DNA of 64,000 bases from Agrobacterium tumefaciens. Lineage in GTDB: Bacteria > Pseudomonadota > Alphaproteobacteria > Rhizobiales > Rhizobiaceae. Of this stretch, positions 1 through 14,249 are shown piece by piece. The notes under the pieces are model-generated. The model searched no databases and was not told the DNA's origin. It saw nothing but the letters and a program-made list of their open reading frames with translations. Every line of letters starts with the position of its first letter. Position 1 is the stretch's first letter. The translations under genes were made by a program, and so were the position numbers. The stretch lies in assembly GCA_025559845.1 (NCBI GenBank), contig CP048470.1, forward strand, positions 472,001 through 536,000, read 5' to 3'.

Positions 1-687
1 CGCGACAAACCCGTCGAGATACGGCAGTCCTGCGTCCCAATAGTTGGGATTACGCTTCAGCTTGACATAGCTACCACGTTTCCATTCCTCGAAGACGAAG
101 GGACCGGTACCGATCGGGGCGTTGCCATTCGGGCTTTCGTTGAAGTTTTCCGACGGATATGCGTGCGCTGGCAGGATCGGCGTCTCACCGCCAGTCAGTG
201 CTCTCAACAGATAAGGCGCGGGCTTTGACAATACGACCACCGCAATATGGGGATCAGGTGTTTCCACATCGGCAATATTGGCGAATGTGATGCGCCCGCG
301 CGGGCCAACCTTCTTGAAGGCAAGCAAGGAGAACTTCACATCCGTGGAGGTGAAATCCTTCCCGTCATGCCATTTCACGCCTTTACGCAGACGGAATGTA
401 TGGCGCAGACCGTCGGCGGAGGTTTCCCAGCTTTCGGCCAGGACCGGATGCGGTTTGAACTCGCTGTCAAAGCGCACCAGACCTTCCAGGATCTTTGTAG
501 AAATCGCTCTGGTGCGCGTATTGCTGTCGGAGAGCGGTACCAGCGTCGTTGGTTCACCAAGACCGGCAAAGGTCACAAGACCGCCCTTTGTCGGCTGCTT
601 GGAGGCGGCAAACGAAACGGATGGGAGCAATGCGGCCCCACCAAATGCCGCCGTCAGAAGCAATGTCTTTCGTCTTGTCAAATCCAT
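1..687 (-). CDS. Peptide-type ABC transporter substrate-binding protein (family 5), 3' end outside window
   Basis: Reading from the ATG at 687 gives 229 codons with no stop before the window edge, so the C-terminal half is missing. The start MDLTRRKTLLLTAAFGG is a twin-arginine/hydrophobic signal peptide, followed by the typical family 5 layout (GGxVxFAGLGEPTTLVPL, then ILEGLVRFD, LAESWETS, FRLRKGVKWHDG, and GPFVFEEWKRG near the edge). It should bind peptides, opines or similar amides in the periplasm; the permease and ATPase genes would lie beyond position 1. An AGAGGAAA ribosome site precedes the ATG. It sits 20 bp after the M20 amidohydrolase and is probably the last visible gene of the operon starting at 5123, suggesting imported substrate is cleaved by that enzyme. 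Substrate is not readable from sequence. Confidence 0.9.
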   Translation of the reverse strand, partial: MDLTRRKTLLLTAAFGGAALLPSVSFAASKQPTKGGLVTFAGLGEPTTLVPLSDSNTRTRAISTKILEGLVRFDSEFKPHPVLAESWETSADGLRHTFRLRKGVKWHDGKDFTSTDVKFSLLAFKKVGPRGRITFANIADVETPDPHIAVVVLSKPAPYLLRALTGGETPILPAHAYPSENFNESPNGNAPIGTGPFVFEEWKRGSYVKLKRNPNYWDAGLPYLDGFVA

Positions 688-707
688 GATTGTTTCCTCT
701 TTGTGTT

Positions 708-1913
708 TTATACCGGAACCGCCGTGAGGCGCTGCTCGATCAGACGCGCAAACAATGTGGCACCCACCGGCAAGATCGCGTCGTCGACAATGAAACCTGG
801 GTTATGCGCAGGAACGTTGCCCGCATGACCAAGCGTGAAAAAGGCACCAGGAGCGTGCTTCAGGAAGTCTGCGAAATCCTCACTGCCCATAAAGCGACCG
901 GGCTCGGTCGAGACGCGCGCGTCGCCCAAGACATCGCGTGCGACCTCCGCAACGATATCGACAGACGCGTCGTCGTTGGTGAGGACCGAGAAAATGTCTC
1001 TGATATCGACATCCGCTATCAGGCCGTGGGCGGCAGCAACATGTTCCGAAATCGTTGCGATCCGCTCGCGGATCGTCGCGCGAACTTGATCGGAAAACGC
1101 CCTCACCGTTCCGGCAATCGACGCCGTTTCTGGTATGACGTTGTAGGCTGAACCAGCCTCGATCCGTGTGATCGACAGGACTGCTGGATCAATCGGCGAA
1201 ACGTTTCGGCTAACGATCGTTTGCAATGTCTGGATGAGTTCGCCGATTGCCGGTACCGGGTCATGGGAGACATCCGGATGTGCGGCATGTGCGCCTTTGC
1301 CCTTCAGCCTGATATCGAAGAAGTCAGCACCGGCGAGAATTGTGCCGGGAGAGACTTTGAGATGATTGGGCGCGGCATGAGAGGAGTTATGCAGTCCATA
1401 AATCTCATCGACGGGAAAGTCCTTGAACAACCCATCGGCGATCATGGCACGCGCACCACCAAGACCTTCTTCCGCAGGCTGAAAGATGAAAACGACCGTG
1501 CCGGCGAAATCGCGAGTTTCGGCCAGATAACGCGCAGCCCCCAAAAGGATCGTCGTGTGCGCATCGTGACCGCAGCCATGAAATTTGCCGGGGTAGATCG
1601 AGGCATAGGGCAAACCCGTATCCTCCGGCATCGGCAGGGCATCCATGTCGGCGCGCAGACCAACCGAGCGATTACCCGCATGTTTTCCACGCAAGATACC
1701 GACCACGCCTGTTTTGCCATATCCGCGATGCACCTCGATACCCCAGGACGCAAGTTTCTCGGCGACGATCCCGGAGGTTCGCACCTCTTCAAAGCCAATT
1801 TCCGGGTGCTGGTGCAGATCGTGACGGATCGACACCAGTTCGGGAATGTAGGTAACAATCCTGTCGATGACTTTCGGTGCTGGGGTGTTTGTGGGGTCTA
1901 CGGCGATGTTCAC
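708..1913 (-). CDS. M20 family metallo-amidohydrolase (hippuricase/N-acyl amino acid amidohydrolase type)
   Basis: 401 aa, the usual length for the M20D hippuricase group. Visible motifs: RHDLHQHPE (residues 30-38), RADMDALP (87-94), HGCGHDAH with the metal-ligand cysteine (112-119) and the acidic pair in FQPAEEG (E148-E149); a lid domain follows in the middle third. These are the di-metal centre and substrate-lid features of enzymes releasing an acid from N-acyl amino acids. No signal peptide, so cytosolic. It lies 92 bp downstream of the flavin monooxygenase and 20 bp upstream of a peptide-type binding protein on the same strand. Inference: it deacylates an amide taken up by that transporter. 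The exact acyl or amino acid group cannot be assigned. Confidence 0.9.
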   Translation of the reverse strand: MNIAVDPTNTPAPKVIDRIVTYIPELVSIRHDLHQHPEIGFEEVRTSGIVAEKLASWGIEVHRGYGKTGVVGILRGKHAGNRSVGLRADMDALPMPEDTGLPYASIYPGKFHGCGHDAHTTILLGAARYLAETRDFAGTVVFIFQPAEEGLGGARAMIADGLFKDFPVDEIYGLHNSSHAAPNHLKVSPGTILAGADFFDIRLKGKGAHAAHPDVSHDPVPAIGELIQTLQTIVSRNVSPIDPAVLSITRIEAGSAYNVIPETASIAGTVRAFSDQVRATIRERIATISEHVAAAHGLIADVDIRDIFSVLTNDDASVDIVAEVARDVLGDARVSTEPGRFMGSEDFADFLKHAPGAFFTLGHAGNVPAHNPGFIVDDAILPVGATLFARLIEQRLTAVPV

Positions 1914-2005
1914 GGCATATCCTTTGGCAATGGAATTCCCTGCCGCTACCGGAGGGTGGCGAGCGATCAGGGACGTTTGATGGTGAAACAGAGGTGGCGA
2001 AGGCG

Positions 2006-3175
2006 TCAGAGCCTTAAGCCGGCCTCTTTCATCAGTGGCAGGATCCGGTCGGCGAAATATTCGAGGTCTTCCCGGAAATCGTAGAAATTGAGCTGAACGC
2101 CGTCGATCCCCGCTTTCTTGAGGCCAATCAACTGTTCAACGACCTGTTCAGGCGAACCGATAATCTCGATATTGCCGCCGAGATTGCGTCCCTGCTTGTG
2201 GCGCGCATCGCCACGTCCCCGCCAGGCATGCGCATCGCTCTCATAATTGTTGGTAGCAAAAGCACGTGTACCCGGCTGTGGCTTTCCTGCCTCGATGGCG
2301 TCAGCATACGCAAAGGCTTCAGCTTCAGTATCACGGCTGACAATTATCGGATTGATGAGTGTCTTGACCTGACGGCCATGTGCTATTGCACGGTTTTTAA
2401 CATTGGCGACATGGGCCGGGAGTGTTTCCAATGCACTATCGATGTGCGCGCCACCAGGCGATGTCACGAAAACCAGGTCGGAATGACGTGCGGCAAAGTC
2501 AATCCCGGCAGGCGAACCCGTCGCAGTTACCAGAGGTGGACGACCAAAGGACGGCTTTGGTGTGATCCAGCCGTTGTTGACCGCCCAGGGATTGAGCTTT
2601 CCTTCGTAGGAGTAGTTTTCGGTTTCACCCCACAATCGGTGCAGCACATCAAACAGTTCACCCGCCATGTCGTAACGTTTGTCGTGTTCGATCCTTTGCC
2701 AACCAAACATCTCATGCTCGATGGCCCGGTGCCCGGTGACGATATTAATGCCCCAACGGCCATTGGCGATGTGATCCAGTGTCGCCCCGTATTTGGCGAG
2801 ATGGAGGGGATGCAAGGGGCCATAAAGGACGTGGATGGTCGAAATTAGCAGGATGCTTTTCGTAACCGCCGCCATAGCACCAAGCGCGATAAAACTGTCG
2901 AGGGAGGAATCACCGTCATAGCCGCCCTTCGGCAGCCATTGCGTGCGACTGAAGGCGATTTCGAAACCCAGCTCCTCAGCGCGTTTGACCAGCTCGACAT
3001 TGTAATCGAATGTCCAGCTATTGCTCGTTGGCAGGCTGGAAAAGTTGATATCCTGCAAATTGAGAAAGAGCCCGAGCATCAACGGCTGTTGTGCAGCACG
3101 GCTTAACGGGCTTTCCTCAAAATCGAACGGTGCCTTCAATTCGAGTGTATCGCTGACCGGCGCTGTCAGTGCCAT
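2006..3175 (-). CDS. LLM class flavin-dependent monooxygenase (SfnG/SsuD-like)
   Basis: 389 aa with the bacterial-luciferase TIM-barrel pattern: FNLQDINFSS near the N-terminus, YNVELVKRAEELGFE, ISTIHVLYGPLHPLHLAKYGATLDHIANGR broken over residues about 105-135, GRWGINIVTG, and the PLVTATGSPAGIDFAARHSDLVF flavin-binding stretch. These enzymes use FMNH2 and O2, often to split C-S bonds of sulfonates or sulfones. The first bases overlap the end of the NmrA-type gene by 10 nt, so the two are translationally coupled, and a DszB-like desulfinase heads the same operon. That context favours a sulfur substrate over the pyrimidine (RutA) reaction. A reduced-flavin supplier is not evident in the window apart from possibly the NmrA-type gene. 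Confidence 0.88.
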   Translation of the reverse strand: MALTAPVSDTLELKAPFDFEESPLSRAAQQPLMLGLFLNLQDINFSSLPTSNSWTFDYNVELVKRAEELGFEIAFSRTQWLPKGGYDGDSSLDSFIALGAMAAVTKSILLISTIHVLYGPLHPLHLAKYGATLDHIANGRWGINIVTGHRAIEHEMFGWQRIEHDKRYDMAGELFDVLHRLWGETENYSYEGKLNPWAVNNGWITPKPSFGRPPLVTATGSPAGIDFAARHSDLVFVTSPGGAHIDSALETLPAHVANVKNRAIAHGRQVKTLINPIIVSRDTEAEAFAYADAIEAGKPQPGTRAFATNNYESDAHAWRGRGDARHKQGRNLGGNIEIIGSPEQVVEQLIGLKKAGIDGVQLNFYDFREDLEYFADRILPLMKEAGLRL

Positions 3176-4074
3176 GATTTTTCTCCCTTCGGATTATGTG
3201 TAGGAATGTCAGCGCCTGCCAGGCGCGCGCTGAGGTAAGCGTCTACGGTTCGCGGTTCGCGGCCGGTGATCCGACGAACGTCATCGCTTAACGAGGACGC
3301 CAAACCTTCGGCGATCAGCACACAGAACTCACCAACCGCCTTTTGCTCAAAGGTGCCAGGGTGTGATGGCAGCGCGGTGTGAACTGTCTGCGACACGCCG
3401 ATCGGGCGATGCAAGATACGCGCGGCAATCCGCCCGATTTCGAGTGCTGTCAGCGCTTTGCCACCCGTCAGGACAAAGGCACCGTTCAACGGTGTCTCTT
3501 TCGTCAATGCCGCAACGGAAACATCCGCGATATCATCCGCATCGATGTAGGAGACGGCGGCACCGGAGTAACGGTCAGGCAAATCCTCCCGGCTGAGAAT
3601 TGCCGCGATTGTGGGCTCAAGTGCGACCTGCATCCACGCATTGGGTCTCAGGATCGTGTGTGCGACACCGCTTTCAGCCAGATGGGCTTCCACCAAGGCG
3701 TGAGCCGATCCGGAAACCGAGCGATCTGCATTTCGTATCGTCCAGTCCGAACCGGATACCTTGACGATACGCTCGATCCCGGCAGAAGCTGCCGCATCAA
3801 CTGCCGCGTTTTGATGTGATGCCAGCGCTTCGCTGATCGGCGACAGCAGAAAGAGTGCATCGATATCAACCAATGCCTCTTTCAAGCTGGGTGGATCCGC
3901 AAAGTCACCTTGAGCGACCTCCACAGCATCGCCCCACAAGCGACGCGCCTCCTCTGGTCTGCGCGTCAGAATGCGCACCTCGGAATTCTTTTTCAGAAGG
4001 CGCTCGACGACGCGTTTTCCGAGTTTGCCTGTCGCTCCTGTGACGAGAATTCTCCGAGCCATGTCCGACCTCAC
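3166..4074 (-). CDS. NmrA-type NAD(P)-binding reductase/isomerase family protein
   Basis: 302 aa Rossmann protein. The dinucleotide motif TGATGKLG is at residues 12-19, followed by a basic patch (RILTRRPEEARR) typical of NADP-preferring atypical SDRs, VEVAQGDFADPPSL, and ALFLLSPISEA. There is no YxxxK active site, as usual for the NmrA/azoreductase-like group. The upstream choice is a GTG at 4074 that forms a GTGA overlap with the stop of the desulfinase gene; an ATG four codons later (4062) is the alternative. Coupled at both ends, it is an integral part of the operon. It may reduce a cofactor or a product for the monooxygenase (inference), or act as a redox sensor as NmrA does. Known members include quinone and aldehyde reductases. 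Confidence 0.85.
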   Translation of the reverse strand: MRSDMARRILVTGATGKLGKRVVERLLKKNSEVRILTRRPEEARRLWGDAVEVAQGDFADPPSLKEALVDIDALFLLSPISEALASHQNAAVDAAASAGIERIVKVSGSDWTIRNADRSVSGSAHALVEAHLAESGVAHTILRPNAWMQVALEPTIAAILSREDLPDRYSGAAVSYIDADDIADVSVAALTKETPLNGAFVLTGGKALTALEIGRIAARILHRPIGVSQTVHTALPSHPGTFEQKAVGEFCVLIAEGLASSLSDDVRRITGREPRTVDAYLSARLAGADIPTHNPKGEKSWH

Positions 4075-5123
4075 AAATCGCGGGGCTGGTGTGCCGCCAA
4101 GGGGCGCGCATCAACCCAATCAAGAACATCGAAATCCGCAGGTATGAAGTGCCACTCCAACAGGAAGTCCTTGAAGTGCGCGATCGCTTCTACCTCTGCC
4201 GGATCGAGAGTGAGGCCAAGGTTTTGACTGACATTCGGACCATTGGCAGCGAGCACCGCATCCTCGCTTACGCCAATTTCACGCGCGATAAACCTGACGG
4301 CGTCGCCGGGATTTTCTTTCGCCCAGCCGGAAACCCGCTGCACCGTGGTAACCAGTTCCGTTACGAGGTCCGGTCGTTCATTTGCAAAAGTCGCATCGAC
4401 CGTGAGTGGTCGCGGAGTGCCGTTGTTGATGCGAATTTTCGGGTCAGGGTGAAATCCCGTCGACACGACAACAAGAGCACCGATAAGGTTGGCGACAGTG
4501 ATACCCTCCGCACCCTTGACGAAAAACGCATCGATGTCACCGCGATTCAGAGCTGCAATTTCCTCCCCATAGGGAAAACGCCTTTTCAGCCCAAGAAACC
4601 GCTCGTCATCTGGACCGAGCAAGACCGGTTCGTTTGCGACGAGGTCGACAAGCTCGACGTTGCTTGTTGTCAGCCCGGAGATCGTCAGTGCTGAGACAAT
4701 GCCCTTTAACGATGTCGCGCGCTGAAAATCGATCGTCTCGTGCGGCCTTCTGGGAAGTCCAACACGCCGCCCCTTCAAATCCGCGCCATTGCGGATACCG
4801 CTCGCGGGCAATGCGATAACAGCCTGAAACTCGTCTGTTCTTGTCAGACCGATCAGGCGTGTCTGACGACCACCCGATCGCGCCCATATTGGTGGAATGC
4901 TACCCCCCTGCCGAAACGACCACTCCAGACTGTGATCAAAATGGCTTTGGCGGATGGAAGGGTCTGCCGCATCGCGTATTGAGGAGACATGGATGGCGTG
5001 GTGAGCGAAGTTTTCCGCGACCCAACCAAGTTGAACTGCGATCGACAACGGCGTCGGCGCAGGACAGCGTGTATACCAGATTGTTTCCGGTTGGAGAGTT
5101 TTGCGTAGTGCCGCCTCGACCAT
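4071..5123 (-). CDS. DszB-like sulfinate desulfinase (usually annotated as a sulfonate-binding protein)
   Basis: 350 aa of periplasmic-binding-protein fold (SsuA/TauA/NMT1 type) but without any signal peptide, so it should stay in the cytosol. By eye it carries the three active-site positions of 2'-hydroxybiphenyl-2-sulfinate desulfinase DszB: Cys20 in YTRCPAPTPL (DszB Cys27), His61 in RQSHF (His60) and Arg71 in FRQGGSIPP (Arg70, followed by the Gly-Gly and Ile-Pro-Pro). The His-Arg spacing of 10 residues is the same as I recall for DszB. The family releases sulfite from an organic sulfinate. It is first in an operon with an NmrA-type reductase and a flavin monooxygenase, which fits oxidation then desulfination of an organosulfur compound. 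A plain sulfonate-binding role is the alternative. The start at 5123 follows a GAGGAT site. Confidence 0.75.
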   Translation of the reverse strand: MVEAALRKTLQPETIWYTRCPAPTPLSIAVQLGWVAENFAHHAIHVSSIRDAADPSIRQSHFDHSLEWSFRQGGSIPPIWARSGGRQTRLIGLTRTDEFQAVIALPASGIRNGADLKGRRVGLPRRPHETIDFQRATSLKGIVSALTISGLTTSNVELVDLVANEPVLLGPDDERFLGLKRRFPYGEEIAALNRGDIDAFFVKGAEGITVANLIGALVVVSTGFHPDPKIRINNGTPRPLTVDATFANERPDLVTELVTTVQRVSGWAKENPGDAVRFIAREIGVSEDAVLAANGPNVSQNLGLTLDPAEVEAIAHFKDFLLEWHFIPADFDVLDWVDARPLAAHQPRDL

Positions 5124-8724: not shown

Positions 8725-9966
8725 TCAATGACCCGACCATGCACGGTGAAGAACCTGTACGGCCAATGCTAGATCGGCCGGGTTCATCGCCTCATCCGGA
8801 TTGTGGCTGCCATTCCAGTTACGCAGGAACACCATAACGGAATCCCAGCCAGCCTGTGCGAAGGCCGCCGCATCGTGGCCACCACCGGACAACATTGTCC
8901 GCGGTGAGAGGTTCATTTTTGCTGCGGCACCGGAAATTTCCGCGGCAAGACCGCTGGACAGTTTCGTTGGCTGGCTGCGAGATTGCGGCCCCAAAATGAA
9001 ACGCACACCCCTGGCCTTTTCAATGCGCGCGATCTCGTTGAGCAGGACAGTATCTACCCGGTCCAGAACCCTATCGTCGTCGCTTCGTATATCGACACAG
9101 AAATCCAGGCGACCCGGGACCTTGGCGAAGGCATGTTCACTGCTGGCCGCATCCACCCGGCCGAAGGTCACGGCGAGATCATCACCATCCTGCAAGACAC
9201 GCTCCCACGCTGTGTCCATACCCACGACGAGATCGGCAAACGCAAACACCGCATCTGACCTCGCTTCGCGCGGCGCACCGCCCGAATGTGCCCAGGCGCC
9301 CTCAATCGTTGCCTTGCGATAACGCAAACCGCCACGCACGCCGTGGACGATGCCGAAGGCTTCGCCAGCATTATCGAGGACTGGACCCTGCTCGATATGC
9401 AGCTCAACAAACCGCGCCGGCGCAAGGCCAGGCCCCCGCAGGACAGCCTCAGGATCGCCTCCAAGCTCGGCCATGTGATCGGCGAGTGTGCGTCCAGTAT
9501 CAGCCCGAAGCGCTTGCATTTCTGGTGCGGTCAGCCTGCCGAGTGCAGCACGCGAACCGACGTATGACACCGGAAACCAGACACTTTCTTCCGCCCGCGT
9601 TACCATCACCACTATATCGCTTGGCGGCACTTCACCGCTTTTGACGAATGCCGCGGCCAGTGCCACGGCGCCAGCCACGCCCGCCTGTCCGTCAAAAGCA
9701 CCGCCCATAGGCACGGTGTCGAGGTGAGAGCCAATATAAAGCGGCGGGGCGGTTCGATCCTTGCCCGGCAGGCGCGCAAACAGGTTTAGGGCCGGATCAC
9801 GCGTCACCTCGAGACCTAGCGCCTCGCATTCCACTGCAACAATCTGATGAGCCGCGCTTTCCAGTGCGCTGTAAGATGGACGGGTAAAGCCTGGTCCCGG
9901 TTCGGATATAGCATTGATGCGATCTATGAGCCGGTCGATCGTGTCCTTGATGAAAACCTCTGTCAT
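8725..9966 (-). CDS. M20 family N-carbamoyl-L-amino-acid/allantoate amidohydrolase type Zn enzyme
   Basis: 413 aa, standard for the AmaB/HyuC/AllC group. Metal ligands and motifs: YIGSHLDTVP (H81), GGAFDGQAGVAGAV (D92), the acidic pair in TRAEESVWFP (E126/E127), FVELHIEQGP (H190), and the last metal histidine in LSGGGHDAAAFAQ. The order differs from the hippuricase-like M20 at 708. These enzymes hydrolyse a ureido or amide bond of a carbamoyl amino acid or allantoate-like compound. The gene overlaps the dehydrogenase gene by 4 nt (ATGA). With the 5-oxoprolinase subunits and a D-amino-acid aminotransferase nearby, a role in opening or deblocking cyclic amino acid derivatives is likely, but the substrate is not determined. 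Confidence 0.88.
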   Translation of the reverse strand: MTEVFIKDTIDRLIDRINAISEPGPGFTRPSYSALESAAHQIVAVECEALGLEVTRDPALNLFARLPGKDRTAPPLYIGSHLDTVPMGGAFDGQAGVAGAVALAAAFVKSGEVPPSDIVVMVTRAEESVWFPVSYVGSRAALGRLTAPEMQALRADTGRTLADHMAELGGDPEAVLRGPGLAPARFVELHIEQGPVLDNAGEAFGIVHGVRGGLRYRKATIEGAWAHSGGAPREARSDAVFAFADLVVGMDTAWERVLQDGDDLAVTFGRVDAASSEHAFAKVPGRLDFCVDIRSDDDRVLDRVDTVLLNEIARIEKARGVRFILGPQSRSQPTKLSSGLAAEISGAAAKMNLSPRTMLSGGGHDAAAFAQAGWDSVMVFLRNWNGSHNPDEAMNPADLALAVQVLHRAWSGH

Positions 9967-10910
9967 GCCAGCAAACGCTCCGGTTCATTGAGTGCCGTCA
10001 CCGGACGTTCGCCAGAAAGCGCAGTCAAAACATGCCTTGCCGAGCCGATGGCCACGCGCTTCAAGGCTTCCAGCGTGGTTCCCCCGAGATGCGGTGTGAA
10101 GATCACCCGTCCGCTGGCAGCAAGAGGACCAATCGGTGCATCGTGGGAATAAACATCCAGCCCCGCAGCTGAGATACGGCCGTCGGCGACGGCATCAGCC
10201 AACGCGCTCTCGTCGATCAGACCGGCACGCGCTGTGTTGATCAAAATGGCCCCTTTCTTGATCATGGAAAGGGCGTGTTGGCCAATCAATTCACGGGTCT
10301 CCTGCCTGAGGGGGGTGTGAAGCGACACCAGATCGCATTGGCGCAACCCATCCTCGAGTGTTGGCGCCCGCTCGAAACCGTCGATGTCGGCAACGCGTGG
10401 CGAATATACGAGAACGCGCATGTCCAGTGCCGCTTTCAGCATCTTGCCGAGGCCTGCACCTGTGGCGCCCCAACCAACGATAAGTGCCGTTTTTCCAGAC
10501 AGCTCCGAAAAGGTCTCACGCTCGCGAAAACCGAAAAGGCCGGCACGCTCATCACGATCAGCTGCGGCTATACCACGGGCGGCCGCAAGCGCCAGCCCGA
10601 GTGCCAGTTCGGAAACAGAGCGAGCATTGGCGCCAGGTGTGTTGCAGACCAGGATTCCTCTTGCCGTCGCTGCCTCCTTATCGACCGCGTCGTGCCCGGC
10701 ACCATGTACCACGATAACCCGCAGCCGATCGGCCGCCTGTATCGCTTCGGCCGACAAACCTCTGTCCCGCGTGATAACGGCATCGCACCCCTGGATGTAG
10801 TGCGACACCACGGCCATGTCAGGGCTCGGGCATATCACCGGTTCAACGCCTGCGGCTTTCAAAATCTCCAGACCGTCGGAGTGGACCGGTTGGACAATAA
10901 GACACTTCAT
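9963..10910 (-). CDS. D-isomer-specific 2-hydroxyacid dehydrogenase family protein
   Basis: 315 aa. The nucleotide fold is seen at TALIVGWGATGAGLG (141-155), the substrate arginine in NTARAGLID (R228) and the general-acid histidine in FTPHLGG (H274). The catalytic glutamate normally found in DVFE is not there: the segment reads DVYSHDAP with Ser255 at that place, so activity may be altered. Family role: NAD(P)-linked reduction of 2-oxo acids or oxidation of D-2-hydroxy acids. ATGA overlaps with both neighbours put it firmly within the operon. It could reduce the 2-oxo acid made by the D-amino-acid aminotransferase (inference). Confidence 0.85.
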   Translation of the reverse strand: MKCLIVQPVHSDGLEILKAAGVEPVICPSPDMAVVSHYIQGCDAVITRDRGLSAEAIQAADRLRVIVVHGAGHDAVDKEAATARGILVCNTPGANARSVSELALGLALAAARGIAAADRDERAGLFGFRERETFSELSGKTALIVGWGATGAGLGKMLKAALDMRVLVYSPRVADIDGFERAPTLEDGLRQCDLVSLHTPLRQETRELIGQHALSMIKKGAILINTARAGLIDESALADAVADGRISAAGLDVYSHDAPIGPLAASGRVIFTPHLGGTTLEALKRVAIGSARHVLTALSGERPVTALNEPERLLA

Positions 10911-11557
10911 CCCTCGTCTGTCCTTTCGGGAAATTGCTCCAGTTTAGCGAGAACGGCATCACGCGCATGTACGATGTGGTCTGCCATCATCCGGCCGGCC
11001 TCATCTCCACGGCCGTCACGCAATGCCGCAATCATGGCTAGATGCTCATCGCAGCTTTTCAGAAACCGGTCCGGAACCTGCGTGTGGTCAAACATGCAGG
11101 TGCGACGGCGCAAATCCTCGATCATAGCCGCCATTGTCTCGCTGCCCGTAGAAAAGGCGATCGTGCGGTGAAACTCGTCATCCACCTGACGCTGCTCATC
11201 ATCCTCACCCGGGCCGTTCTGCTGCAGGTGCCTGACACGCGCCTCCAGACTATCAAGGATGGTTGGCGCGACCATCGTTGCGTGCCGCGCACAATAGGAT
11301 TCAAGCACCTGTCGTAAAAAGAAGATTTCCTTGACTTCCTCAGAACTTAACTTGCGGACCCTCAGAAACCGGCCATCCTGTGAGACCAAACCTTCCGCCT
11401 CGATACGCTTGATCGCCTCGCGTACGGGTGTGCGGGACATTTCAAGCACTTCGCCCAGCTTGGCCTCCTGCAAAGCGTCGCCTGGCGTCAAAGCGCCTGA
11501 CAGGATCATCTGGATGATTTTGCCATAGGCTTGCTTTGCAAGCGGTTGCGTCGTCAT
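10907..11557 (-). CDS. GntR family transcriptional regulator, FCD subclass (second of two)
   Basis: 216 aa. HTH at residues about 8-70 (AYGKIIQMILSGALTPGD, MSRTPVREAIKRIEAEGLV) followed by FCD helices (FFLRQVLESYCARHA, DDEFHRTIAFSTGSE, CDEHLAMIAALRDG, MADHIVHARDA) containing the conserved Asp/His metal positions. The gene is chained by ATGA overlaps between pxpC and the dehydrogenase. Because it is the third gene of the transcript whose promoter carries the ATAC-N5-GTAT palindrome, autoregulation is plausible. Which of the two GntR proteins recognises which site cannot be decided by reading. Confidence 0.9.
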   Translation of the reverse strand: MTTQPLAKQAYGKIIQMILSGALTPGDALQEAKLGEVLEMSRTPVREAIKRIEAEGLVSQDGRFLRVRKLSSEEVKEIFFLRQVLESYCARHATMVAPTILDSLEARVRHLQQNGPGEDDEQRQVDDEFHRTIAFSTGSETMAAMIEDLRRRTCMFDHTQVPDRFLKSCDEHLAMIAALRDGRGDEAGRMMADHIVHARDAVLAKLEQFPERTDEG

Positions 11558-12522
11558 GACATGTCTCCTCGAACATTTTGCCGGTTCGGCTTTGTTACCA
11601 GATTCCCCAACACGTTGCGCAACGCAGCACGCTCGGAAATCAGCAACGCCTCCGCCTCATCTTGCGACACGTAGTTGAACCGCACGCTGCGGCCGCTTGT
11701 AACCTGCGCAAGCCTTGGGAGATCGACGGATGCAACCGTGCCTATCTTCGGATAACCACCTGTGGTCTGCCGCTCCGCCATCAACACGATCGGCCGGCCG
11801 GATGACGGAACCTGAATGGAACCGGCAGACGTCCCGTCGGAAACGATGTCATGGCCACGCTCGGCATGAATTTCCTGTCCATCCAGCATTTGTGCCATCC
11901 GGTCTCGCGCAGCAGAAACAATGAAGTCCGCCTGTGTGAAGGCCTTGCGTGTCTCTGCTGAGAAATAGTCGTCCTGTGGACCCGGGACGACCCTGATCGG
12001 GCGCACTGATCGTCTCCACATACCACTCAACGCCATTTCGTTTTTCGAATGGGCTTCGTGAAGAGACAGGCGATCTCCTGCCTGCAGCCGGCGGCCGTCC
12101 AAGCCACCAACACCGCTGCGCAAGTGTGTGGAGAGCGAGCCAAGCACGGATGGCAAGTCTATGCCACCCGCGAACGCCAGATACCCCCACACGCAGTCGC
12201 GCAAAGCACCGATATGCAATTGCTGCCCCGGCTCCATCCTGTAGCTTTCCCACGGGTGCAGGGCCGTCCCATCGAGATGAATGCTGACATCGCCGCCCGT
12301 TACCGAGAACAGTGCAGGTTGCGAGACGGAAAACATGCCGCCAACGCCGGCGAACTCCAGAGCGGCCGCATTGCCATGATTGCCGACGAGTGCATTGGCA
12401 ATCCGGAAAGAAGGCGTATCCATTGGGCCGCAGCCGGAAACGCCAGCATGATGCAGCCCTTTCCGCCCAAGATCCTGAACGGTCGCCATCGGCCCGACCT
12501 GATGAACATCAAGCACATTCAT
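11554..12522 (-). CDS. pxpC: 5-oxoprolinase subunit C (biotin-dependent carboxyltransferase-like)
   Basis: 322 aa, matching PxpC/KipA length. Typical segments: TVQDLGRKGLHHAGVSGCGPMD at residues about 14-35, NALVGNHGNAAALEF, HLRSGVGGLDGRRLQAGD, and near the end MAERQTTGGYPKIGTVASVD. In bacteria PxpA, PxpB and PxpC together hydrolyse 5-oxoproline to glutamate with ATP. It overlaps pxpB by 4 nt (ATGA) and the GntR gene by 4 nt. The pxpA partner is on the other strand at 13476. Within a cluster for amides and D-amino acids the complex might act on another lactam. Confidence 0.93.
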   Translation of the reverse strand: MNVLDVHQVGPMATVQDLGRKGLHHAGVSGCGPMDTPSFRIANALVGNHGNAAALEFAGVGGMFSVSQPALFSVTGGDVSIHLDGTALHPWESYRMEPGQQLHIGALRDCVWGYLAFAGGIDLPSVLGSLSTHLRSGVGGLDGRRLQAGDRLSLHEAHSKNEMALSGMWRRSVRPIRVVPGPQDDYFSAETRKAFTQADFIVSAARDRMAQMLDGQEIHAERGHDIVSDGTSAGSIQVPSSGRPIVLMAERQTTGGYPKIGTVASVDLPRLAQVTSGRSVRFNYVSQDEAEALLISERAALRNVLGNLVTKPNRQNVRGDMS

Positions 12523-13283
12523 GGCTGCAAACCCATGATGTTTTCACCTGCGGCGATAGCGCGATCGAGGTCAGCCCCCTCGCTCTCGCTGACAGGACGA
12601 AATCGAACACGGTCACCCGCTTTCAACAGGAAGGGATGAAGCCGTTGCGGGTCAAAAAGCTTGAGCGGGGTACGGCCGATGAAACGCCAGCCACTTGGCC
12701 CGGCAACCGAGTTGACGCTCGCCTGCTTGCCGCCGATACCAACGGCACCCGCCTCGATGCGTTGACGCGGCGTCGCAAGGCGCGGTGTGTGCAGGGCCTC
12801 CGGCAAGCCGCCGAGATAAGCAAATCCTGGAGCAAAACCAATCATGTAGACGCGGTACTCGGCAGAGCTGTGCATCTGGATAAGGGCATCGGGCGACAGG
12901 CCCTTCATTCCCGCCAACTCTTCGAGATCAAGACCGACGGTTCCGCCATAGACGACGGGAATTTCGAATTGACGGGACGGACGCGCATCCGCAATCAGCG
13001 AGGACAGACGCTGCAGCAATGCTCCAGAAAGCATCCGGCCCCGAACGATTTCAGGATCATACATTACCATCAGTGATCGGTAGGTCGGAACAAGCTCGTC
13101 AATTCCGTCGATGGGATTTTCGGCAAGATCATCAGCAAGAGCAATAACGCGCGCGCTTACGCTTTCATCGATCTCGTCGGACAATTCAACAGATATGGCG
13201 CTATCACCGCAAGCAAGAATGCGCGGAAACTTGTCAGCCTCTCGAATCCGTATTTCCTTACCGGTCATGCACGCTCGATTCAC
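12519..13283 (-). CDS. pxpB: 5-oxoprolinase subunit B (KipI-like)
   Basis: 254 aa. Motifs of the KipI/PxpB family: GDSAISVELSDEID near residue 28, VPTYRSLMVMYDP, YRVYMIGFAPGFAYLGGLPE around residue 150, and SVNSVAGPSGWRFIGRTP. The protein partners with PxpC as the kinase-like half of 5-oxoprolinase. It is the first gene of the eight-gene minus operon. The ATG at 13283 follows a region with TTGACA on the minus strand (13329-13324) and the operator palindrome (13312-13324) immediately downstream of it. An N-terminal extension of about 20 residues (MNRACMTGKEIRIREAD) precedes the conserved part, so an internal start is possible. Confidence 0.92.
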   Translation of the reverse strand: MNRACMTGKEIRIREADKFPRILACGDSAISVELSDEIDESVSARVIALADDLAENPIDGIDELVPTYRSLMVMYDPEIVRGRMLSGALLQRLSSLIADARPSRQFEIPVVYGGTVGLDLEELAGMKGLSPDALIQMHSSAEYRVYMIGFAPGFAYLGGLPEALHTPRLATPRQRIEAGAVGIGGKQASVNSVAGPSGWRFIGRTPLKLFDPQRLHPFLLKAGDRVRFRPVSESEGADLDRAIAAGENIMGLQP

Positions 13284-13308
13284 GATCTTAGTTTCATCAA
13301 TGTATTTC

Positions 13309-13329
13309 AGTATACCACCAGTATGTCAA
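13309..13329 (-). promoter_or_regulatory. GntR-type operator in the pxpB operon promoter
   Basis: ATACCACCAGTAT (13312-13324) has ATAC/GTAT arms around five bases. On the minus strand it starts within a TTGACA (-35 candidate, 13329-13324) and includes TATACT (13314-13309). A repressor here would cover the core promoter. The companion site 89 bp away faces pxpA, and a third copy precedes the DapA-like gene. Confidence 0.65.
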
Positions 13330-13387
13330 CGCTGGCATTATGGTGAAGCGCTCGGCCCCTGAATCTGAAAGCACACGACAAGCTCGC

Positions 13388-13416
13388 TTGAGTTTTGAGT
13401 ATACCACCTGTATGTC
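13388..13416 (+). promoter_or_regulatory. GntR-type operator in the pxpA promoter
   Basis: ATACCACCTGTAT (13401-13413) repeats the ATAC-N5-GTAT core. It lies in the spacer between a possible -35 TTGAGT (13388-13393) and a weak -10 TATGTC (13411-13416) of pxpA. Centre-to-centre distance to the pxpB-side site is 89 bp. Confidence 0.6.
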
Positions 13417-13475
13417 CGAATGGATACATCTGCGGCACGCTTCGCGAAACGCTCAACAATAAGGGGAACCGACCG

Positions 13476-14249
13476 ATGGCAACAATCGATCTGAACTGCG
13501 ACATGGGCGAAAGCTTCGGCGCCTGGACGATGGGCGAGGATGCAATCATGATGGAGCTGATCACCAGCGCCAACATTGCCTGCGGCTTCCATGCCGGAGA
13601 TCCGGTCGTGATGCGCGACAGCATCCTGGCAGCCAAGGCACGCGGCGTTTCCATCGGCGCCCACCCGTCATTCATGGATCTTTACGGTTTCGGTCGACGC
13701 CGCATCTACGGCGAACGCCCCGCCGATGTGGAAGCGCAACTGATTTATCAGATCGCTGCAATGCAGGGCATGGCAACATCGCTTTCCTGGCCCATGACGC
13801 ACGTCAAAACCCATGGTGCGCTGGGCAACATCGCCGCCATTGAACCCGAACTTGCCAAGGTCTGCGTGAGCGCCATCAAGGCTGTCGATCCGTCGCTAAC
13901 CTTTATCACCCTACCTTACTCCGAAACCATGAAAGCAGCCGAGAAAGCCGGTCTGCGTGTCGCCTGCGAAGTCTACGCCGATCGTACCTATGACGATAAT
14001 GGCATGCTGACCTCGCGACAGACCGAAGGCGCAGTCATTCACGATCCGGCGCAAAGCGTCGAGCAGGTCTTGTCGATGGTCTGCGACGGGATTATTCCAA
14101 CGACGGGCGGCAAGAAACTGCCGGTGGAGGCTGCAACGATCTGCGTTCATGGCGACACCCGCGGCGCGGCGGAAACTGCGCGCGCACTCCGCACGACATT
14201 AACACGGCACGGGCTGGAATTTGCCCCCTTCGCCAAACCAAACATCTGA
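13476..14249 (+). CDS. pxpA: 5-oxoprolinase subunit A (LamB/YcsF family)
   Basis: 257 aa from the ATG at 13476, with AAGGGG at 13461-13466 as ribosome site; in-frame codons upstream run into the promoter. Diagnostic N-terminus ATIDLNCDMGESFG, then SANIACGFHAGDPVV, GAHPSFMDLYGFGRR, HVKTHGALGNIA and CVHGDTRGA near the end. With PxpB and PxpC it makes ATP-dependent 5-oxoprolinase. It is transcribed divergently from pxpBC, an unusual split, and is followed after 14 bp by the D-amino-acid aminotransferase gene. Confidence 0.94.
   Translation: MATIDLNCDMGESFGAWTMGEDAIMMELITSANIACGFHAGDPVVMRDSILAAKARGVSIGAHPSFMDLYGFGRRRIYGERPADVEAQLIYQIAAMQGMATSLSWPMTHVKTHGALGNIAAIEPELAKVCVSAIKAVDPSLTFITLPYSETMKAAEKAGLRVACEVYADRTYDDNGMLTSRQTEGAVIHDPAQSVEQVLSMVCDGIIPTTGGKKLPVEAATICVHGDTRGAAETARALRTTLTRHGLEFAPFAKPNI

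Follow-up and report, generated by a model that had tools for sequence, protein, structure and literature searches.

Here we report on a gene near the start of a 64,000-nucleotide stretch of Agrobacterium tumefaciens DNA (contig CP048470.1, positions 472,001 to 536,000; the whole stretch is called the window, and coordinates are counted along it). The gene, at 4071-5123 on the reverse strand, encodes a protein of 350 amino acids that we judge, with a probability of roughly 0.7, to be a cytosolic, cofactor-free and cysteine-dependent sulfinate desulfinase of the DszB superfamily, from a clade that is sister to DszB/TdsB. The relationship to DszB, proposed in an earlier reading of the window (the sequence-only reading), is backed by sequence, predicted fold, catalytic residues and phylogeny. 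Taken from these analyses, the clade is distinct from DszB and has a recurrent set of oxidative partners, a finding that we regard as real and coherent.

Catalytic residues, phylogeny and the question of secretion

Sequence alignments place Cys20, His61 and Arg71 of the protein on Cys27, His60 and Arg70 of DszB, its RQGG (the RxGG of residues 71-74) on the RxGG motif of DszB, and its GGSIPP on GGEIPP; the coincidence of the three active-site residues and the GG-x-IPP motif, both pointed out in the sequence-only reading, are thus present in the alignments made here. Thr18, Gly73 and Gly74 likewise align with Ser25, Gly72 and Gly73, and Cys20 is the sole cysteine of the protein. In DszB, Cys27 is critical, His60 and Arg70 apparently hydrogen-bond the substrate, and Arg70 lies within the RxGG motif, which DszB homologues share and which is presumed to have a structural role (PMC6100217). 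For the residue counts 50 rows were collected, the duplicates L007 and L013_+11311 were dropped and DszB was added, the copy from the same genome (L073) standing as the window row and the truncated L020 being excluded, which left 47 family rows. The His, the Arg and both Gly are kept in all 47 and the Cys in 43, and the full residue pattern is matched by 238 of 240 homologues (the best 120 of 1409 and the best 120 of 897 from two protein searches); one of the two misses is truncated at its N-terminus and the other has the Cys, with the pattern broken at the next residue. At the catalytic columns C, H and R are absent from all 18 SsuA_fam/NMT1-family proteins compared from the same genome, the alignment of such distant rows being unsure, and the two motif glycines are uninformative alone, as several binding proteins also have Gly there. 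Because of this conservation within the family, set against its absence from the 18 proteins, the match to the DszB site exceeds chance.

Four genomes of one proteobacterial family carry an SsuD-like gene followed by DszB-like genes in tandem (L057:9698/10849, L058:11029/9887, L059:11067/9937 and L060:10472/9345), the first copy keeping the Cys (WYTRCPVP) and the second having Ser instead (WYTHSPVP). These Ser copies are natural counterparts of the inactive DszB C27S mutant.

Structure prediction, one of the checks that the sequence-only reading had called for, gave a fold of the periplasmic-binding-protein type that is closest to DszB, with SsuA second-best. The 2'-hydroxybiphenyl-2-sulfinate desulfinases DszB/TdsB (PDB 2de2, 2de3) have this fold, the Cys-His-Arg site and RxGG-x-[IV]PP in common with the window protein, and they too lack a signal peptide and have partners among LLM monooxygenases and flavoenzymes of the acyl-CoA dehydrogenase (ACAD) fold. 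The nearest homologues found in protein searches are from Agrobacterium and Rhizobium. In a maximum-likelihood tree the window family (24 rows and one intermediate) forms its own clade with support 100/99, sister to the DszB/TdsB group (9 rows, 91/92), and the two together are split from seven binding proteins at 100/99. This was the second tree. It drew 24 rows from the 47 of the family and 7 proteins from the 18 binding proteins (14 in the first tree), to which were added DszB and 9 of 80 hits of a DszB search, namely eight that fall in the DszB/TdsB group and P0320. L152, W155 and F203 of DszB, which we take to be aromatic pocket residues, are invariant in all nine DszB/TdsB rows. They are not kept in the window family, in which L152 and W155 face gaps in 24/24 rows and F203 faces a gap in 21 rows and a different residue in the other 3, the alignment being unsure in this region; because of this difference the substrate is probably another sulfinate and not a biphenyl-type one. 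The clade also differs from DszB/TdsB in its sequence (about 23% identity), in its distribution, which here is mainly Rhizobiaceae along with some other Proteobacteria, in often having two copies per genome and in lying in an island with a peptide-type transporter. Chelatococcus is an alphaproteobacterium. DszB peptides have been reported from it (PMC4839641), one of them letter-identical to a stretch of the DszB sequence.

The window protein had been said to have no signal peptide, and this is borne out: none can be encoded because the frame from stop to stop holds only 353 amino acids. A hidden upstream start adding a signal peptide was considered and rejected, the frame being just three codons longer than the protein, and the first strand of the fold starts at residue 14. 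N-terminal hydrophobicity, taken over the first 45 residues of the window protein and the first 70 of the 18 binding proteins, is weakly informative (1.41 versus 0.36-2.73). SsuA proteins are secreted. These sulfonate-binding proteins have the fold in common with the window protein, but they form a separate clade in the tree, their relatives in the same genome lack the Cys/His/Arg site, and the window protein matches the NCBIfam model SsuA_fam below its cut-off (73.8 bits versus 163.5). Judged on its frame and family, the product is not a secreted binding protein. It had also been called an enzyme disguised as one, which is only partly right: some public entries of the family already carry desulfurization names ('putative dibenzothiophene desulfurization enzyme B', '2'-hydroxybiphenyl-2-sulfinate desulfinase', 'desulfurase'). 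Another possible cytosolic member of the fold is an SsuA-family protein of the same genome (L070, G000:C2:2233511-2234284; 287-aa frame), whose sequence starts at the first strand of the domain and which lacks a hydrophobic N-terminus (0.36) and the Cys/His/Arg site.

Flavoenzyme partners and gene neighbourhood

The gene belongs to a run that occupies positions 1-5123, all of it on the reverse strand. After it come genes for an NmrA-like NAD(P)-binding reductase (3166-4074), an LLM flavin-dependent monooxygenase (2006-3175) and an M20 family amidohydrolase (708-1913; TIGR01891, above cut-off), and these coordinates, like those of the DszB-like gene, hold on re-check. The run ends in the window with the start of an oligopeptide/glutathione-type binding protein gene (1-687), which continues beyond it (L005:12193-13788). 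The sequence-only reading had described the genes as overlapping and the operon as including a peptide transporter. The NmrA and LLM genes do overlap, by 10 bases, whereas a 4-base overlap between the DszB-like and NmrA genes requires the NmrA gene to start at a GTG, the next ATG leaving a gap of 8 bases; of the transporter, the window holds only the start of that one binding-protein gene, the permeases and ATPases lying some 8-12 kb beyond the window on the opposite strand. Elsewhere in the window, the genes at 11554-14249 may be a 5-oxoprolinase subunit set.

The LLM monooxygenase noted earlier beside the DszB-like gene is of the C-S-cleaving type and co-occurs with it in distant relatives as well. 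Its closest solved relative is the dimethylsulfone monooxygenase SfnG (E 5.3e-43), followed by RutA, with DszA at 3.2e-19; we rejected its identification as SfnG, as it scores 184.7 bits with the equivalog model TIGR04021, below the curated cut-off of 382.95. About 18 kb downstream on the same strand lies a paralogue of the DszB-like gene, with an ACAD-fold flavoenzyme gene directly after it. Between the two DszB-like genes are found oligopeptide permeases and ATPases, an aldo-keto reductase, a LysR regulator, three oligopeptide-type binding proteins, the M20 enzyme, the window LLM and NmrA genes, an SfnB-family ACAD-fold protein (E 4.4e-91, under the equivalog cut-off) and an NtaA/DmoA-type LLM (over the subfamily cut-off). 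Just beyond this stretch are genes for an alkanesulfonate monooxygenase, which scores over its cut-off, and for relatives of a thiosulfate transporter and a sulfurtransferase, which both score under theirs. An LLM monooxygenase, an ACAD-fold flavoenzyme and a desulfinase candidate are hence encoded together in this island and in its relatives, a set like dszABC of the 4S type. The ACAD-fold genes may encode sulfur monooxygenases. Their identification as SfnB or DszC was rejected, none reaching the curated cut-offs; the protein next to the paralogue has 5z8t (E 1.5e-52) and 5gj7 (E 1.7e-52) as its closest solved relatives. Some of the genes match models for acyl-CoA dehydrogenase and 3-sulfinopropanoyl-CoA desulfinase, and a dehydrogenase or CoA-thioester role may apply to some.

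The arrangement recurs in related genomes. In the Rhizobiaceae clade of the window-type gene, all 12 loci have an NmrA gene after it, and the paralogue-type gene has an ACAD-fold gene after it at all 13 Rhizobiaceae loci with a complete copy of at least 66% identity to the paralogue; a Variovorax locus (60% identity) has NmrA in place of the ACAD-fold gene, and at L051, a truncated paralogue-type copy, our query panel found no ACAD-fold gene. Across 30 DszB-like loci we found LLM genes at 26, ACAD-fold genes at 19 and oligopeptide permeases at 17, against 1, 0 and 2 of 20 control stretches, a contrast that is somewhat flattering because the controls came from the window's own genome only and the panel was built from DszB-like loci. 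The 30 loci represent 29 genomes or records, G231 contributing two, and are related, such that the counts are not independent; left out were L004, L043, L045 and L047, the other halves of counted loci, and L098 and L099, which lack annotation. Rhizobium acidisoli has the genes in the order binding protein, LLM (58% identical to the window LLM), DszB-like and ACAD, an order also seen in genome G128, where the match to the ACAD-fold gene holds one in-frame TAG, and on pSymA of S. meliloti both DszB-like types flank an ACAD-fold gene; the pSymA of strain ml66 (L061) has two DszB-like copies. The ACAD-fold partner of the paralogue is patchy: at E <= 1e-80 it has matches in 7 of the order's 297 genomes, the window's own counted, and two of these matches, that in G128 included, contain one in-frame stop.

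Three other settings were seen. A plasmid of Rhizobium leguminosarum carries a relative that shares 26% identity with the paralogue (L065:7965-9131) and keeps Cys, His and RxGG; it is flanked by a pair of 2-hydroxyacyl-CoA dehydratase family genes and a pair of acyl-CoA dehydratase activase genes, and rhodaneses and a sulfate permease are encoded close by. A divergent tandem pair of about 30% identity (L055:8173-9261 and 9297-10361) also keeps them, and its 20-kb stretch shows no LLM, ACAD-fold or OppBC neighbour. On a Variovorax plasmid (L062:11986-21195) the genes after the DszB-like/NmrA pair encode a sulfurtransferase, an amino-acid ABC transporter, a member of the cysteine dioxygenase family and cystathionine beta-lyase, a gene set that hints at an amino-acid-derived substrate.

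Alternative functions of the protein

Several observations weigh against a desulfinase. The Pfam match of the family is to a binding-protein model, NMT1/THI5-like PF09084 (23.8 bits, cut-off 20.5), structure alignments give a low identity to DszB of 23-24%, and the tree program warns that long branches meet at the split between the DszB types and the binding proteins. Ser replaces the Cys in 4 of the 47 relatives, and 2 of the 30 loci have none of the three partner types. The family is patchy: with the window's own genome counted, it occurs in 11 of the 297 genomes from the bacterial family (E <= 1e-20) and in 7 of the 398 in a phylum sample (E <= 1e-12). The ACAD-fold protein next to the paralogue fits acyl-CoA dehydrogenase models and SfnB about equally and DszC to a lesser degree, and its role as a sulfur monooxygenase is unsure for that reason. 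Finally, a literature search that mostly lacked subscription papers returned no study characterising the clade and no activity data for its members.

An enzyme of the same fold that uses its Cys/His/Arg site for another C-S, C-C or C-N scission, or as a sulfonate lyase, is the alternative that survives best, and we hold it to be unlikely. The fold is common to enzymes of other chemistry, such as Thi5, MqnD and 4,5-dihydroxyphthalate decarboxylase, and the chemistry could have shifted where L152, W155 and F203 are not kept; against this, the three DszB catalytic positions and RxGG are all kept, and many loci carry SfnG/DszA-type and SfnB/DszC-type flavoenzymes, whose best-known relatives yield sulfinates and sulfones. 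Decidedly unlikely, in our view, is a non-catalytic cytosolic relative of SsuA whose binding of a sulfinate or sulfonate would serve regulation or delivery. It would agree with the binding-protein fold, the NMT1 match and the rank of SsuA as second-best fold, and non-catalytic members of the family may exist, given that four relatives have the change to Ser that inactivates DszB; yet the frame leaves no room for a signal peptide, the Cys kept in 43 rows occurs in none of the 18 related binding proteins, and the island encodes an oligopeptide-type transporter that has binding proteins of its own. An ordinary DszB acting on hydroxybiphenyl sulfinate in the classical 4S pathway of petroleum desulfurization shares the catalytic residues, the fold and the public names of some homologues, but is very improbable in view of the placement of the protein outside the DszB/TdsB group and of the three DszB residues that are not kept.

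A possible sulfinate route and its meaning

On the sulfinate desulfinase reading that we prefer, we infer the desulfination reaction, the order of steps and the substrate as follows. An organosulfur compound would enter through the peptide-type ABC transporter and perhaps lose an acyl group to the M20 enzyme; its sulfur (sulfide) would be oxidised by the ACAD-fold flavoenzymes, and the SfnG/DszA-like LLM monooxygenase would cleave the C-S bond of the sulfone to give a sulfinate and a carbonyl, the latter possibly reduced by the aldo-keto reductase. The organic sulfinate (R-SO2-) would then be bound in the cleft of the periplasmic-binding-protein fold, its sulfinate group held by Arg71, His61 and the RxGG glycines, and Cys20 would drive scission of the C-S bond to release sulfite for sulfur assimilation. 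Cofactor-free desulfination has been described for DszB, where it is the slow step of biodesulfurization, and two mechanisms have been proposed for Cys27, nucleophilic attack and electrophilic substitution by the Cys proton (PMC6100217). The NmrA-type reductase, the M20 amidase and the transporter may belong to the same pathway.

SfnG, the solved enzyme closest to the window LLM, reportedly yields methanesulfinate. Its known route leads from there to methanesulfonate and on to sulfite (PMC13352529), unlike the route proposed here, and neither 'DszB' nor 'desulfin' occurs in the text of that paper. The bdsABC benzothiophene operon of Gordonia terrae combines, like the island, a desulfinase, an FMNH2-dependent monooxygenase and an alkanesulfonate-type monooxygenase, and extracts of E. 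coli expressing it convert benzothiophene to o-hydroxystyrene (PMC3868597); it is actinobacterial, unlike the island, and the likeness is one of gene set. Salvage of S-alkylcysteine by CmoO/CmoJ in soil bacteria also joins C-S-cleaving flavin monooxygenases to deacetylation, but its intermediate is a sulfenic acid, and what it recovers is cysteine rather than sulfite from a sulfinate (PMC10863075).

We tentatively suggest, at somewhat less than even odds, that sulfinate desulfinases without a cofactor have in this clade a second class, proteobacterial and acting on aliphatic or amino-acid-derived sulfinates in place of biphenyl sulfinate, that with its LLM and ACAD-fold partners it makes up an undescribed sulfone-sulfinate-sulfite scavenging route in rhizosphere bacteria, and that it is possibly the missing genetic basis of desulfurization in Agrobacterium MC501 and Sinorhizobium KT55. 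MC501 is cited as desulfurizing compounds of the dibenzothiophene (DBT) type, the cited title naming dibenzothiophene sulfone (PMC4327732), and KT55 as desulfurizing benzothiophene (PMC4327732; KT55 is also cited in PMC3868597) and as using dimethyl sulfone for sulfur (PMC6630823); the excerpts of these three papers name no genes for the traits. A clade with the catalytic site of DszB but not its L152, W155 and F203 would give new enzymes and substrates, would supply named candidate genes for the desulfurization traits that were reported from rhizobia in 1996 and 2001 (as cited in PMC4327732), and suggests that entries named 'ABC transporter substrate-binding protein' that lack signal peptides be checked for enzyme function. 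Such a clade would further indicate an organosulfur route to sulfite in bacteria that live with plants.

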